From: a virus
Virus record (IMG/VR): IMGVR_UViG_3300029981_000029
Coordinates: 1-37,817 of that record
Direction: 5' to 3' (one strand)
Length of the DNA stretch: 37,817 bases
Shown here: positions 623 through 30,932 of the stretch, piece after piece
Layout of the letters: each line of letters begins with the position of its first letter
How positions within the stretch are numbered: the first letter of the stretch is position 1
Notes under the pieces: model-generated
Database searches by the model: none
Told to the model about the DNA's origin: nothing
The model's input: only the letters and a program-made list of their open reading frames with translations
Made by a program: the position numbers and the translations under genes

Positions 623-660
623 TATATTTGCCCTGTACGTTATTCATATCACAGGGGCGA
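620..660 (+). promoter_or_regulatory. Promoter plus palindromic operator, copy 1
   Basis: TATATTTG at 623-630 is a -7 element. The TTTGCCCTGT that starts inside it (627-636) is the left arm of an inverted repeat whose right arm is ACAGGGGCGAA (651-661), with a 14-bp centre. A matching arrangement, also with TTTGCCC and GGGGCAAA arms and a GTTAyTCATAT centre, occurs on the minus strand at 27250-27291 upstream of the Rha gene. Because the left arm overlaps the -7 box, a DNA operator bound by a shared regulator is more likely than an RNA hairpin. This is inference from two copies. Confidence 0.55.
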
Positions 661-685: not shown

Positions 686-805
686 GGCAAAATACAGCCA
701 ATGGAGGGCCAGAAGGTAACAACTGGCGACTTACTAAGCCCCGCTTATGAGTGACGTACACCTCCATTGGCCTTGTTATTTTTATAAACCTTTAATTCTT
801 AAAAC
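686..805 (+). ncRNA. Structured 5' leader RNA, copy 1 (three-way junction)
   Basis: The stretch folds into a three-way junction. P1 is an 11-bp perfect stem (697-707 with 761-771). P2 is GCCAG/CTGGC (708-712 with 723-727). P3 is about 10 bp (729-733 plus 735-739 with 743-752, C734 bulged) closed by a CCC loop. A second copy on the minus strand at 27108-27227 keeps every stem while its bases change in compensating pairs: two pairs in P2 and one in P3. Both copies are followed by a nearly identical AT-rich 34-nt spacer and then an ATG. I do not recognise a known riboswitch family. It may be a cis-acting riboswitch-like leader, a protein-binding leader or a processed small RNA. Confidence 0.8.
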
Positions 806-1162
806 ATGTACGTCGAAAAGAATGAACAAAACAAAGAGACTGAGAGCATCAGGCTACAACGGTCGAAAGAACACAGTAAAGCCTTAAAAGAATTCTTTGA
901 TCAATGGCTACGAAGCGGTGACCTAAAGAAAGTTGCTGAAAAGCTTGGTAAAAGCTATGTGGTAGTACGACAAACAAGATTAAAGCCTGGGAGTAGCCGT
1001 AAAATAAGTGAAGCTATTTATGCCGTATGTTTATCGAATAAGATTTTACTTGAATCCATGAACATGAATGTTGACCTTGCTACCATTGACATGATCATGC
1101 AGATAGATGACCATGATGTACGCTTAGGATTGTGGAACAAACTAACTGGGAGGGCATTATAA
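806..1162 (+). CDS. Putative helix-turn-helix regulator under the structured leader
   Basis: A 118-residue cytoplasmic protein. Residues 1-25 are polar and charged. Residues about 38-65 (DLKKVAEKLGKSYVVVRQTRL) look like a helix-turn-helix of the kind that reads 'advance through the helix, turn at Gly, recognition helix'. The C-terminal third contains acidic and hydrophobic helices. The ATG at 806 lies 34 nt after the P1 stem of the structured leader, exactly as in the second leader-controlled gene (Rha). The stop codon overlaps the next ATG (TAATG), so the next gene is translationally coupled. A regulatory role in the lysis-lysogeny or late switch is plausible; family not recognised. Confidence 0.65.
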   Translation: MYVEKNEQNKETESIRLQRSKEHSKALKEFFDQWLRSGDLKKVAEKLGKSYVVVRQTRLKPGSSRKISEAIYAVCLSNKILLESMNMNVDLATIDMIMQIDDHDVRLGLWNKLTGRAL

Positions 1163-21859: not shown

Positions 21860-23608
21860 ATGGCAAAGGTAAGTTTAGCACAGATTAAGAACTGGTTTAG
21901 AACTCGTTTAAAACCAACCCAGGCGCAGTATTGGGATACGTGGGATAGTTTTTGGCATAAGGATGAGGTGTTGCCACAGGTACAGAGCGACTGGAACCAG
22001 GCAACTGATACTGCAAAGGATTTCATTAAGAATAAGCCTACGATACCGGCTGCACAGGTACAAAGCGATTGGAACCAGGCAACTGATACTGCAAAGGATT
22101 TCATTAAGAATAAGCCTACGATACCGGCTGCACAGGTACAGAGCGACTGGAACCAGGCAACCAACACTGAAAAGGACTTTATTAAGAATAAGCCCACAAT
22201 ACCGGCTGCACAGGTACAAAGTGACTGGAACCAGGAAACTGATACCGCAAAGGATTTTATAAAGAATAAACCTACCATACCCGCTGCACAGGTGCAAAGT
22301 GATTGGAATCAGGCAACTGATACTGCAAAGGATTTCATTAAGAATAAGCCTACGATACCGGCTGCACAGGTACAAAGCGATTGGAACCAAGCAACTGCCA
22401 CTGAAAAGGATTTTATTAAGAACAAACCTTCGGTAGTTTCGCCAGGCAACTTTACTGACACGGATCATGTTGAATGGGATATCAGCAATACTCCAGAGAC
22501 GGGTGCTGTGATAAAAGCCAATAGCATTGGTTTTACCGGCACTTTTATCGATTTAGAAGGTAATACGGTGAATGTTGTGAAAGGGTTAATTAAGTCGAAA
22601 ATAGAACCGGTTAAAGGATTAAAACTAACCTGGAATGATATTGCCAATGTGCCGGTATTGGACGTTAATTCAGTTTCTGATTGGAATACGTTTTTTGATC
22701 TTCCAGAATATATTACCCCATTTAGTTCGGTTGTAGTTACCGACAATACTGTAACTTTAATTGGTGGTGAAGGTGAAATCTCCCTGAAAGAGGCTTTATT
22801 TCAGAATAATGCTAACCTTCTATCTATTGAAGATACGATAGGCTGTATTGTAGGAGTATTAGATGACTGCTTTTGGCATTGTACATCATTGACCTCGGTC
22901 ATATTACCGATGTTACAATTATGCGGATTTGGATCATTTCGTCAATCGGCAATAATTTCAGTGTCTTTCCCTAATTTAACTTCAGCGGGCGCTAGTTGTT
23001 TTTATGGTTGTGCTGATTTATTATCAGTTTCATTACCATTACTTGAGACTTCTGAAAATGAACTATTTTCAGCTTGCACGTCATTAACTGCTATTTCATT
23101 ACCAGCTTTAACAGTTGCTGGTAATAATAGTTTTGCTCATTGTGAAGCCTTAACTTCGATTTCATTACCTACTCTTAATTCTGCCGGACAAGCTTGTTTT
23201 GGCTATTGTAATGCCTTAACTTCGATTTCATTACCTGCTCTTAATTCTGCCGGACAAGCTTGTTTTACCGAATGTACTTCGTTGGTATCAATATCATTAC
23301 CTGCATTGGTAAATGCAGACATGCAGCTTTTTGATACATGTACTTCACTAACAACTGTTTCGTTGCCTTCACTCACTGATGTAGGTAGTGAATTATTATC
23401 TTCATGCACTTCAGTAACATCAGTTTCAATCCCTTCGTGCATTAATTTAGGTGGCACGCCTGGAAATGATTACACCTTTTTTAATATCACCGGAAAAACA
23501 ATTTCATTAACAATTCCAGCCACCTTGATGACCTGCAATAGTGGTACCCCTGATGGTGATATTGCCCAATTGCAAGCGAATAATACAGTAACAATTATAA
23601 CAACATAA
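21860..23608 (+). CDS. Tail fibre with tandem repeats and BspA-type leucine-rich repeats
   Basis: A 582-residue protein. Residues about 40-195 consist of six 26-residue repeats of VQSDWNQATDTAKDFIKNKP type, a motif common in phage and bacterial tail fibres. Residues about 195-330 form a linker with beta strands. Residues about 330-560 are BspA-type leucine-rich repeats of 22-23 residues (LTSISLPALNSAGQACF, CTSLTSV). BspA LRRs bind host surface molecules in many Bacteroidota and their hosts, so the C-terminus is the likely receptor-binding part. The N-terminus (AKVSLAQIKNWF) probably attaches to the baseplate. Confidence 0.85.
   Translation: MAKVSLAQIKNWFRTRLKPTQAQYWDTWDSFWHKDEVLPQVQSDWNQATDTAKDFIKNKPTIPAAQVQSDWNQATDTAKDFIKNKPTIPAAQVQSDWNQATNTEKDFIKNKPTIPAAQVQSDWNQETDTAKDFIKNKPTIPAAQVQSDWNQATDTAKDFIKNKPTIPAAQVQSDWNQATATEKDFIKNKPSVVSPGNFTDTDHVEWDISNTPETGAVIKANSIGFTGTFIDLEGNTVNVVKGLIKSKIEPVKGLKLTWNDIANVPVLDVNSVSDWNTFFDLPEYITPFSSVVVTDNTVTLIGGEGEISLKEALFQNNANLLSIEDTIGCIVGVLDDCFWHCTSLTSVILPMLQLCGFGSFRQSAIISVSFPNLTSAGASCFYGCADLLSVSLPLLETSENELFSACTSLTAISLPALTVAGNNSFAHCEALTSISLPTLNSAGQACFGYCNALTSISLPALNSAGQACFTECTSLVSISLPALVNADMQLFDTCTSLTTVSLPSLTDVGSELLSSCTSVTSVSIPSCINLGGTPGNDYTFFNITGKTISLTIPATLMTCNSGTPDGDIAQLQANNTVTIITT
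21977..22444 (+). repeat. Six tandem 78-bp repeats within the tail fibre gene
   Basis: Units begin at 21977, 22055, 22133, 22211, 22289 and 22367. Copies at 22055, 22289 and 21977 are almost identical at the DNA level, and the copies at 22133, 22211 and 22367 are more diverged. High DNA identity implies recent expansion by slippage or unequal exchange. Length change here would adjust fibre shaft length in phase, since 78 is a multiple of 3. Confidence 0.9.
23147..23278 (+). repeat. Near-identical 66-bp tandem LRR duplication
   Basis: A 66-bp unit at 23147-23212 and 23213-23278 is identical over most of its first 54 bases, then diverges at the end. Each copy encodes one 22-residue LRR. Neighbouring LRRs are much less similar, so this is the most recent duplication within the receptor-binding part. 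Confidence 0.8.
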
Positions 23609-23619
23609 AATAATAAGCG

Positions 23620-23907
23620 ATGAGCCTAAAAGTATTTAAAACAACGGATTTTACCCTGGTGGGTGAAAAGTATGTAAGCCCGGGAGTACAGATTGAAGGA
23701 ACGGCAGCAGCCGTGCAAATTAAGACAGCAGTTGCGGCTACTATAACAGTAGAGCGTGCCGTGAATGCAAAGGATTTTAGCCCGGTACCGAACTTTGAGC
23801 TGGCCGTAAATGGCTTGGATGAATTTAATGTGACAAATGCCTTGAAAGGGCAATGGATACGGGTAGTGAGTACGGATGAGCCGGTAAGTTGTAATGTTTT
23901 AACGTAA
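23620..23907 (+). CDS. Small beta-rich tail-associated protein
   Basis: A 95-residue protein beginning 11 bp after the fibre gene. Beta strands and few charged residues (FTLVGEKYVSPGVQIEG, AATITVERAVNAKDF) suggest a small sandwich fold. It could be a fibre-tip cap or adaptor. Family not recognised. Confidence 0.65.
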   Translation: MSLKVFKTTDFTLVGEKYVSPGVQIEGTAAAVQIKTAVAATITVERAVNAKDFSPVPNFELAVNGLDEFNVTNALKGQWIRVVSTDEPVSCNVLT

Positions 23908-23911
23908 GGTT

Positions 23912-25420
23912 ATGGATTGCAATTTGAATGAGAGAGCGGCAAAACTGGGGGGTGTGGATGTTGCTGAGGTTGATTTTGGAACGCCGTTGAACCTAAACCA
24001 CGATCCGACCAATATTTCATTATCTGCCTCTGCTATTGCTGAAAATAATGAAATTGGAGCTACTATAGGTGAACTTACAACTACTGATCAGGATTTGAGC
24101 GATACCTTTACTTACACTCTTATTTCAGGTGATGGATCAACCGATAATGATTCATTTGTGATTGAAGGATCGAATTTAAAGGCTGGTATTTCCTTTGACT
24201 TTGAAACTAAATCAAGTTATTCGGTAAGGGTAAGGTCAACAGATCAGGGCGGTAAATACTTTGAAAAGGCTTTTGAAATTACCGTGATTGATGTTTTAGA
24301 AATTCCTACTAACTTTATTTCAGCGTTTACCGTTGATACAATTTTAGGGCAGCTCAATTGGACTGATACCAATGCCGGCGCGGCGCAATACGAGGTATAT
24401 TCAGCTACAAATGGAGCTGCTGAAGTATTACTCGGGACTACCATCGCAGGGGCAATCTCATACCAGGACTTAACTTGCAAACAGAACGCTTCAGTAGTAT
24501 ATCGAATCCGGGCAAAAAAAGGATCAGAAATTACTGATTTTGTGGCTGCCACTGCTTTGAAAACCCCACTCTGTTGGAAAACGAATCAATCGACATTAAC
24601 GCCGGTTGTTTTCGGTCAGTTAAATATTGCCCCTGGAAAATCGGTCACGGCACACTGGGGCGACGGTACAAGCCAGGCATATTCTGGTAATAATGCTACT
24701 ATTACAAAAAACTATTCAATACCAGGTCAGTATAATATTTGGTTAACTGGTGACACGAATTCTATAACTTACTTTGCCATTCCTTTGCAATATAAAAACT
24801 ACGGCAATATCGGAAATTGGATTTTGCCTTCAGCTTTGACATATTTCAGCTTTACTTCATCGAATGTTTCAGGTGATATTTCTGGCTGGGTACTTCCTGC
24901 AACGCTTACAGATTTTTATATAAATTCAACCGCTGTTTCAGGTGATATTTCTGGCTGGATACTGCCACCTGTTTTAAATTTCTTATATGTACATACGACT
25001 AATGTTTCGGGTGATATTTCCGGCTGGGTTATACCGTCAACTGCAACCTATATTTACTGTCAGGCAACATATCTAACGGGGTCACTGCCACAAATAAGCG
25101 CCTCCACAAATTCGTTAAAATATCAAGTCTTCGGTTGTAGAATGTCTGATTCAAATACAACTGTGTTTAGAAAAGCGATGACGGCATTTAATGTCGGTTC
25201 TCAGAATGTAATATTCCCAACCGCAAATATTGACAAGCTACTTAAAGCAGCTGCAGACTGGTATCAAACCAATGCACCTACTGCAAATTGTACTTTTACA
25301 CTTTCAGGAGCAAATATGGGTATTCCTACGGGGGGGGCATCTAACGCAGATTTAGTTCGTTTGGTAGGATATTATACTACAGCATCCAAGACGGCAACAG
25401 TATTAATTAGAACATCTTAA
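23912..25420 (+). CDS. Adhesin-like tail protein with cadherin- and Fn3/PKD-like domains
   Basis: A 502-residue protein. Residues about 30-125 form a cadherin-like domain (ENNEIGATIGELTTTDQD, FTYTLISGDGSTDNDSFVI, FDFETKSSYSVRVRSTDQGG), residues about 130-215 look Fn3-like, then comes a PKD-like part with HWGDGTSQAYSGN. Four repeats of the type VSGDISGW.LP form a short LRR-like region (about residues 305-390). The C-terminus is helical with a Thr/Ala-rich end. It probably forms part of the adsorption apparatus. Cys-containing and asparagine-rich segments match neither neighbour. Cadherin domains bind calcium; attachment may be calcium-dependent. Confidence 0.75.
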   Translation: MDCNLNERAAKLGGVDVAEVDFGTPLNLNHDPTNISLSASAIAENNEIGATIGELTTTDQDLSDTFTYTLISGDGSTDNDSFVIEGSNLKAGISFDFETKSSYSVRVRSTDQGGKYFEKAFEITVIDVLEIPTNFISAFTVDTILGQLNWTDTNAGAAQYEVYSATNGAAEVLLGTTIAGAISYQDLTCKQNASVVYRIRAKKGSEITDFVAATALKTPLCWKTNQSTLTPVVFGQLNIAPGKSVTAHWGDGTSQAYSGNNATITKNYSIPGQYNIWLTGDTNSITYFAIPLQYKNYGNIGNWILPSALTYFSFTSSNVSGDISGWVLPATLTDFYINSTAVSGDISGWILPPVLNFLYVHTTNVSGDISGWVIPSTATYIYCQATYLTGSLPQISASTNSLKYQVFGCRMSDSNTTVFRKAMTAFNVGSQNVIFPTANIDKLLKAAADWYQTNAPTANCTFTLSGANMGIPTGGASNADLVRLVGYYTTASKTATVLIRTS

Positions 25421-26325: not shown

Positions 26326-27107
26326 TATGACAAAGCCCTCCTTAGCTCAAGTTTAATGTTGTGATCGTCGCGCAGGGTACGGCTACCGCTAACGATTAGC
26401 CTGATGCCGTTTTTGGTGGTGAACCATGCCGGGTGTGTGTTGCCAAATATCCAGATTTTAAAGGCTGTTGGGCGTTGCTTGTTTAACTTGCCTGCTATTT
26501 GGTAAGCGCTGGTATTGGCCTGTATGGCATGGCAGAAATCGTTGATTGAGTAATAAACCACTTCGTCGACCACAATGCGGCGGATGTTGAAATGATTGAC
26601 CTTGACAAAGTCGTACTCCTGAAGGCGCACGTCGATGTAGTCGGGTTTGCCTTCGGGCTGGGTGATTTTGATGGGTCCGGCAGCCGGCAGCGCCTGGTTC
26701 TCGAGGCGGGTGAGGCGCTCGCTGATGACATTGGTGATGCCGGTAAATGTTTCGGTAAGCCTGATCATGGCGGTGGTAAGTTGGTCGAGCTGGCTGGCGT
26801 TGTGCGTTTCGAGCTGTTCCCAACGGATAACGAGTTTGGCACGCGCCTCGTCGTTGAACTTGGTTGATACATAAAGACACTCTGTTTTTGTTAAATCAAT
26901 TTGAGGAAGTTTGCGCCCACTTCCATCGGTGTACTCACTGAGCGCAAATTTGCGCCCAGTGTAATTTTCCCAGGCTGTTTCCATCGTTCTGATGGCTCTC
27001 ATTACATCTTTGTGATTCTTGCCGGTAATTTCGGCAATTTCCCGGCTACTCATAGTTTCGCCGTGGTTTGGCAATAAGTTGCCAGCTTCATTCTTCTTGA
27101 CAGTCAT
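26325..27107 (-). CDS. Rha family phage regulatory protein
   Basis: A 260-residue protein. Residues 1-100 carry the Rha domain: GETMSSREIAEITGKNHKDVMRAIR, ... GRKFALSEYTDGSGRKLPQIDLTKTE, then LVIRWEQLE. Rha proteins are phage-encoded regulators, known from phi80 and HK620-type phages, that affect growth in IHF-related host backgrounds; the biochemical role is unknown. Residues 160-260 form a second domain with DYIDVRLQEYDFVKV and a KQRPTAFKIWIFGNTHPAWF stretch. The chosen start at 27107 is 34 nt from the structured leader; an upstream ATG at 27146 lies within the leader and is rejected. Confidence 0.85.
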   Translation of the reverse strand: MTVKKNEAGNLLPNHGETMSSREIAEITGKNHKDVMRAIRTMETAWENYTGRKFALSEYTDGSGRKLPQIDLTKTECLYVSTKFNDEARAKLVIRWEQLETHNASQLDQLTTAMIRLTETFTGITNVISERLTRLENQALPAAGPIKITQPEGKPDYIDVRLQEYDFVKVNHFNIRRIVVDEVVYYSINDFCHAIQANTSAYQIAGKLNKQRPTAFKIWIFGNTHPAWFTTKNGIRLIVSGSRTLRDDHNIKLELRRALS

Positions 27108-27227
27108 GTTTAAAGAATTAAACGGTTTATAAAATAACAAGGCCAATGGAGGTGACTGTCACTCACAAGCGGGGCTTGGTAAGTCGCCGACCTTACGGTA
27201 TCGGCCCTCCATTGGCTGTATTTTGCC
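27108..27227 (-). ncRNA. Structured 5' leader RNA, copy 2 (three-way junction)
   Basis: This is the reverse-strand twin of 686-805. P1 is CCAATGGAGG-type (27206-27216 with 27142-27152), P2 is GCCGA/TCGGC (27201-27205 with 27186-27190), P3 is ACTTA-C-CAAGC/GCTTGTGAGT with CCC loop (27161-27184). Compared with copy 1, P2 differs by two complementary pair swaps and P3 by one T-A to C-G change, while unpaired segments GGCG and GTGAC are kept. The Rha start codon follows after 34 nt. Confidence 0.8.
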
Positions 27228-27249: not shown

Positions 27250-27291
27250 CTTTTGCCCCCGTTATATGAGTAACAGTCGAGGGCAAATGTA
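27250..27291 (-). promoter_or_regulatory. Promoter plus palindromic operator, copy 2
   Basis: On the minus strand TACATTTG (27291-27284) is a -7 box, and TTTGCCCTCG with CGGGGGCAAA forms an inverted repeat whose 10-bp arms differ by one wobble position. The layout matches copy 1 at 620-660. It is expected to drive the leader and the Rha transcript. Confidence 0.55.
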
Positions 27292-30840: not shown

Positions 30841-30932
30841 GAGCCGGGTAGGAGAATCGAACTCCTGTTTGCAAGCCAACTCCGGGAAAACACTCCGGCG
30901 GCCTACCGCTCTACCAACTGAGCTAATCCGGC
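30841..30932 (-). ncRNA. tRNA-like element 2 (almost full cloverleaf, anticodon arm replaced)
   Basis: Read on the minus strand, GCCGGAT (30932-30926) and ACCCGGC (30849-30843) form an acceptor-like stem with one mismatch; GCTCAGTTGGTAGAGC is a canonical D-arm; AGGAG-TTCGATT-CTCCT is a canonical T-arm. Between them lies a 41-nt insert rich in CCGG with a duplicated ACTCCGG, instead of a 17-nt anticodon arm. It is 92 nt long and cannot decode as drawn. It lies upstream of the gene at 30805 and may be a processing or leader element. Confidence 0.6.

Follow-up and report, generated by a model that had tools for sequence, protein, structure and literature searches.

Two probable C4-type antisense RNAs, each complementary to its own start codon region, in a Mu-like phage

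Introduction

C4 antisense control of antirepressors has been worked out in phages P1 and P7. The elements of P1 lie in the order a1/b1, C4, a2/b2, icd, ant, and the P1 antirepressor Ant1 carries an ANT domain. C4 folds into a three-way junction of stems P1, P2 and P3 with a UUCG P2 loop; one antisense segment, a′ (CTGTCAA), lies in J3/1, the unpaired stretch that links P3 to the 3′ arm of stem P1, and a second, b′, lies in the P3 loop, while the targets a2 and b2 are found upstream of the icd start codon. The RNA is processed by RNase P, acts in trans and represses Ant synthesis (PMC5320573, PMC8546580), its processed form being ~77 nt long (PMC5320573). C4-like Group 1 small RNAs of Acinetobacter baumannii are likewise expressed and apparently processed (PMC5320573). 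Rfam places the P1/P7 C4 antisense RNA (RF01695) in clan CL00128 together with c4-2 (RF02944), a family with Bacteroidota hosts. Here, we compare with these systems two leaders of a single phage, found in a window of 37,817 nucleotides (the whole stretch of DNA analysed, virus record IMGVR_UViG_3300029981_000029).

Layout of the two leaders

Two leaders stand where an earlier note, made from the sequence, had placed them, each with an 11-bp P1 that ends 34 nt before an ATG (at 806, and at 27107 on the minus strand; table 1). Their P2 stems, GCCAG/CTGGC versus GCCGA/TCGGC, differ by two true compensatory swaps and their P3 stems by one T-A to C-G change. Both leaders fold more stably than their dinucleotide shuffles, with a z of −2.97 for copy 1 and −4.30 for copy 2. 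A structured leader does occupy 686–805, but the homologous unit is longer: it opens with the promoter box, at about 623 in copy 1 and 27291 in copy 2, and closes ~8 nt inside the coding sequence.

The unpaired segments had been described as kept between the copies, which does not hold for J3/1, a 7-nt segment that had been overlooked: it reads GACGTAC in copy 1 and GACAGTC in copy 2, a difference mirrored both in the start codon region and in a 5′ copy. Besides being complementary to the start codon region, J3/1 is complementary to this 5′ copy, 3–5 nt past the TAnnTTTG box, where the pairing is extended via the P3 3′ strand to 15 bp in copy 1 and 14 bp in copy 2, two of them G-U in each case. 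Such a triplet together with a promoter box is observed twice in the window and never in 100 dinucleotide shuffles; the triplet without the box has a chance mean of 1.35 per shuffled window. Since bare triplets arise by chance, it is their conservation at other loci that carries the argument.

Table 1. Features of the two leaders and their downstream genes in the window.
Copy	Feature	Positions	Strand	Basis or remark
1	Promoter −7 box TATATTTG, Bacteroidota TAnnTTTG	623..630	+	Sequence; consensus PMC7366714
1	5′ target copy, a1-like, TGTACGTTATTCATA	634..648	+	
1	Three-way junction RNA	697..771	+	Folding, model R1
1	Stems P1; P2; P3	697-707/761-771; 708-712/723-727; 729-752	+	
1	Putative antisense segment GACGTAC, a′-like, in J3/1	753..759	+	Exact complement of 808-814
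1	Start-codon target, a2-like, ATGTACGTC	806..814	+	GTACGTC within it matches J3/1
1	Gene predicted to be regulated: 118-aa small protein, weak HTH similarity	806..1162	+	
2	Promoter −7 box TACATTTG	27284..27291	-	Sequence
2	5′ target copy GACTGTTACTCATA	27265..27278	-	
2	Three-way junction RNA	27142..27216	-	Folding, model R1
2	Stems P1; P2; P3	27206-27216/27142-27152; 27201-27205/27186-27190; 27161-27184	-	
2	Putative antisense segment GACAGTC in J3/1	27154..27160	-	Complements the start codon region exactly
2	Start-codon target ATGACTGTC	27099..27107	-	GACTGTC within it matches J3/1
2	Gene predicted to be regulated: Rha family (antirepressor-type), 260 aa	26325..27107	-	

The P3 loop is CCC in both window copies, and neither holds a second antisense segment of the b′ kind there. 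Another candidate second site, pairing of the P2 loop with the spacer after P1, was considered by eye in copy 1 and rejected, no cognate excess being found. The short genes upstream of the two copies were likewise considered as paralogues, a relationship that BLASTP leaves unsupported (E 0.85).

Two further hairpins may be recorded. The promoter sequence TTTGCCC is often complementary to GGGC(A)AA slightly downstream (window 627–660 and 27250–27287; loci L019, L060, L067 and L070), and the hairpin so formed could hold the 5′ target copy in its loop, like a1 in P1 c4-a1b1; by the promoter reading, however, this stem would be mostly untranscribed. An extra AT-rich hairpin, TCTTGGGCAAAA...TTTTGACAAGATAAA, is conserved between the 5′ copy and P1 in L013, L019, L060, L062, L066 and L070; the window copies have a shorter form of it or none.

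Relationship to c4-2 and the C4 clan

The junction was at first taken to belong to no named family, yet it is that of the C4 clan, shared with P1 C4, and relatives of the window copies match c4-2. The window copies themselves match no Rfam C4-clan model at the gathering score (41 bits for c4-2) or at E<10. Three diverged loci match c4-2 over the full model at 26.9–32.2 bits, below the cut-off (L004, E 0.00095; L013, E 0.00018; L026, 32.2 bits), and the elements of L195 and L196 exceed it. A covariance model built from L004, L013 and L026 alone (R1), though it excludes the window, recovers copy 1 (689–780, 36.3 bits, E 3e-7) and copy 2 (27133–27224, 33.0 bits, E 2.7e-6), and a window-type model (R2) recovers c4-2 loci in return, most at E 1e-9 to 1e-3. 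Judged by sequence and fold, the window copies appear to belong to the C4 clan through these intermediates. Neither R1 nor R2 finds P1 C4. The tie to C4 proper is therefore made through the Rfam clan and through architecture, in which a long P1, P2 and P3 hairpins and an unpaired J3/1 with an a′-like word are all found, the word being complementary both to an upstream copy (a1) and to a site near the translation start (a2).

With c4-2, the window type shares the three-way junction, the Bacteroidota hosts, a GNRA-like P2 loop, a UAUGGNGG/ACACCUA core (in the near relatives), a promoter-proximal target copy and a target at the ATG. Two members above the cut-off, L195 and L196, also carry the antisense segment in J3/1, whereas most c4-2 loci examined have it in the P3 loop and stand before a ~77-aa gene; the window copies differ further in their fully paired P1 and 3-nt P3 loop. 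In most c4-2 loci examined, the P3-loop word matches a promoter-proximal copy plus a copy abutting the ATG, and canonical c4-2 loci follow the window pattern in this respect, with cognate pairing of 7.0 versus 4.2 bp.

Among the Bacteroidota genomes L029–L057, a single one may hold as many as six canonical c4-2 RNAs. Most of those read precede the ~77-aa family MSTNTLSKE...FYWLNELAEILNPYL, and the ATG of the promoter-proximal target copy itself often opens a mini-ORF. In these genomes c4-2 looks like a stand-alone module and not a phage element alone.

P1/P7 C4 with c4-a1b1 (RF03163) shows the same succession of target copy, antisense RNA, target copy and antirepressor as well as the same junction topology, and its a′ occupies the place of the window antisense word. 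The window copies differ in having one antisense segment and not two, in a target on the start codon rather than upstream of it, in lacking the UUCG P2 loop, and in forming two non-crossing copies within one phage, diverged beyond Rfam's reach. The word may thus lie in J3/1 or in the P3 loop: P1 uses both sites, most c4-2 loci examined use the latter and the window type uses the former. The A. baumannii Group 1 RNAs resemble the window in that many C4 folds with differing a′ words share one genome, but they are proteobacterial RNAs and of the full C4 type, having both a′ and b′ loops (PMC5320573).

Covariation and cognate pairing in related elements

Relatives gathered by Rha and transposase searches are diverged phages with the same layout. 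A pattern scan combined with the covariance model yielded 11 window-type elements, to which L195 and L196 were added from a later genome search, giving 13 loci; L058, a partial model match in G292, was set aside. Pattern scans with the window core had a sole match, L003, a near copy of copy 1, and blastn against phage records gave none. Loose complementarity descriptors without promoter or stem produced many chance matches and were discarded as evidence.

The earlier note had argued for selection at the RNA level from base-pair covariation between the two copies and had set a covariance-model search as a check. A search of this kind, with R1 built from related loci, and the pattern scan did find further elements with covarying stems, and in the 11 related elements 17 of 26 pairs are changed on both sides, bearing the argument out. 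In the junction alignment 95.3% of cells pair, a proportion that falls to 36–47% when pair partners are slid by 1–3 columns; the covariation score for the 11 sequences is 0.598 versus 0.201 shuffled, in an alignment fitted to the model, which favours covariation somewhat.

The antisense words differ between most loci, and the promoter-proximal copy, J3/1 and the start-codon copy nevertheless agree with one another in all 11 elements, as they do in L195 and L196. Each of the 11 also has a TAnnTTTG box 3–5 nt before the 5′ copy. Pairing of the 5′ copy spans 14–17 bp across elements; start pairing is merely 6–7 bp in L019, L059 and L066. Over the 13 loci, cognate pairing averages −19.2 kcal/mol for the 5′ copy (non-cognate, −5.2) and −10.8 kcal/mol for the start (non-cognate, −3.8), with no permutation among 100,000 as good as the cognate pairing, values that are favoured by the choice of the best-pairing segments for comparison. 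Given the promoter box and the fixed position, this choice is unlikely to be the whole of the cognate effect.

Proposed mechanism and alternatives

The structure, covariation, triple complementarity, promoter box and family links, as read from sequence, make it highly probable that each copy is a C4-type antisense RNA that blocks translation of antirepressor-type genes and so keeps lysogeny. A TAnnTTTG promoter would give one transcript on which the 5′ target copy comes first, then the junction RNA and, beyond an AT-rich spacer, the regulator gene. J3/1, the equivalent of a′ in P1 C4, would pair with the last base of the start codon, G, together with the 6 nt that follow it. Such pairing would prevent initiation of translation on other transcripts, in trans, and perhaps also in cis. 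Bacteroidota mRNAs are without classical Shine-Dalgarno sites (PMC7366714), which would make start-codon blocking the natural equivalent. The 5′ copy, with its stronger pairing to J3/1 and the 3′ strand of P3, would open that hairpin and tie up J3/1. Its role is probably to sequester the antisense segment as long as a transcript is unprocessed, or to serve as a decoy. We infer that the RNA is expressed, is processed to a free form and represses in trans; with the regulated genes taken as antirepressor-type, it would silence the prophage and make the lysogen immune to related phages that enter it.

Pairing of each J3/1 with the start of the other copy is weak (−4.0 and −3.5 kcal/mol versus −11.7 and −12.7 for the cognate starts), and independent silencing of the two genes is therefore expected; each word probably silences its own downstream gene only, and the two would form separate silencing channels within one phage. 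The suggestion that two small RNAs act on phage regulators survives as a prediction, but that of their co-regulating both genes does not, the antisense words being different. More tentatively, and with considerable doubt, the Bacteroidota branch of C4 may be a start-codon blocker with a 5′ self-inhibitor, active only after processing or displacement, two separately addressed RNAs controlling lysogeny in this phage.

The alternative that survives best, though we think it unlikely, is a purely cis-acting RNA switch in which J3/1 is contested between the 5′ end of the transcript and its start codon, without a separate antisense RNA. All parts would lie on a single transcript, and the 14–17 bp of 5′ pairing would open P3, whose hairpin is worth merely −5.7/−7.6 kcal/mol. 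Against this, the related P1 C4 works in trans after processing (PMC5320573, PMC8546580), and a cis switch needs no distinct words in the two copies, though drift could produce them. Considerably less probable is a protein-binding leader, whose junction would be bound by the downstream regulator or a phage protein that autoregulates translation: the fold is conserved, with a GNRA-like P2 loop in most members, and the downstream genes are regulators, yet their protein families differ while the RNA is common to them, and why the hypervariable segment tracks its target is left unexplained.

Very improbable, too, are repeated DNA operators, with a repressor bound to copies of the short word at promoter, middle and start codon. 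Each leader does hold three such copies, one inverted; the words, however, vary between loci amid conserved surroundings, the stems covary, the 5′ pairing includes G-U pairs and the words keep a constant place relative to J3/1 and the ATG. A metabolite riboswitch, which the earlier note had entertained and for which a structured leader ahead of a start codon might speak, can be dismissed almost entirely, as the hypervariable J segment tracks its target and forms no conserved unpaired pocket, the downstream genes are phage regulators and non-metabolic, and the window copies match no Rfam riboswitch at gathering or permissive thresholds. In three copies, position 7 of the 5′ pairing is a U-G wobble, which had suggested a self-splicing, group-I-like reading; this too was rejected, because L013 is without the wobble and no intron family is matched.

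On the C4-type antisense reading, control of this kind would extend to Mu-like and other Bacteroidota phages, in which the start codon itself would be what the word is directed against. The word is free to vary and its target follows, so that targets should be readable straight from sequence; members of c4-2 would each gain a predicted target, a prediction that may already be known to the original c4-2 authors, and two words within one phage make immunity groups testable.

Downstream genes and phage context

The gene after copy 2 matches Rha (PF09669, E 1.8e-18; PHROG anti-repressor Ant, E 8.2e-18) and that after copy 1 has a weak HTH match (DUF2089 HTH, E 0.0099, below the cut-off). Rha, Bro-N or ANT domains are encoded in the first or second downstream gene of 6 of the 11 elements, and several further loci have small downstream genes without assigned function. 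By eye, the C-terminal region of the L019 Bro-N protein appears common with the window Rha protein, the N-terminal domains being different.

Domain and PHROG searches identify genes for a portal, a transposase and a MuB-like protein in the window, marking the phage as Mu-like, and relatives of its transposase lie mostly in Bacteroidales genomes. The RNA models match nothing in a related phage record, L011, whose transposase is 82% identical to that of the window; this suggests that the element is a module that can be swapped, although the L011 record may be incomplete. The window also holds a tRNA-Arg (CCG) gene within the phage early region (30841–30932, minus strand). Genes downstream of those for the tail (21860–25420, plus strand) encode BspA-type leucine-rich repeats and cadherin/PKD-like domains.
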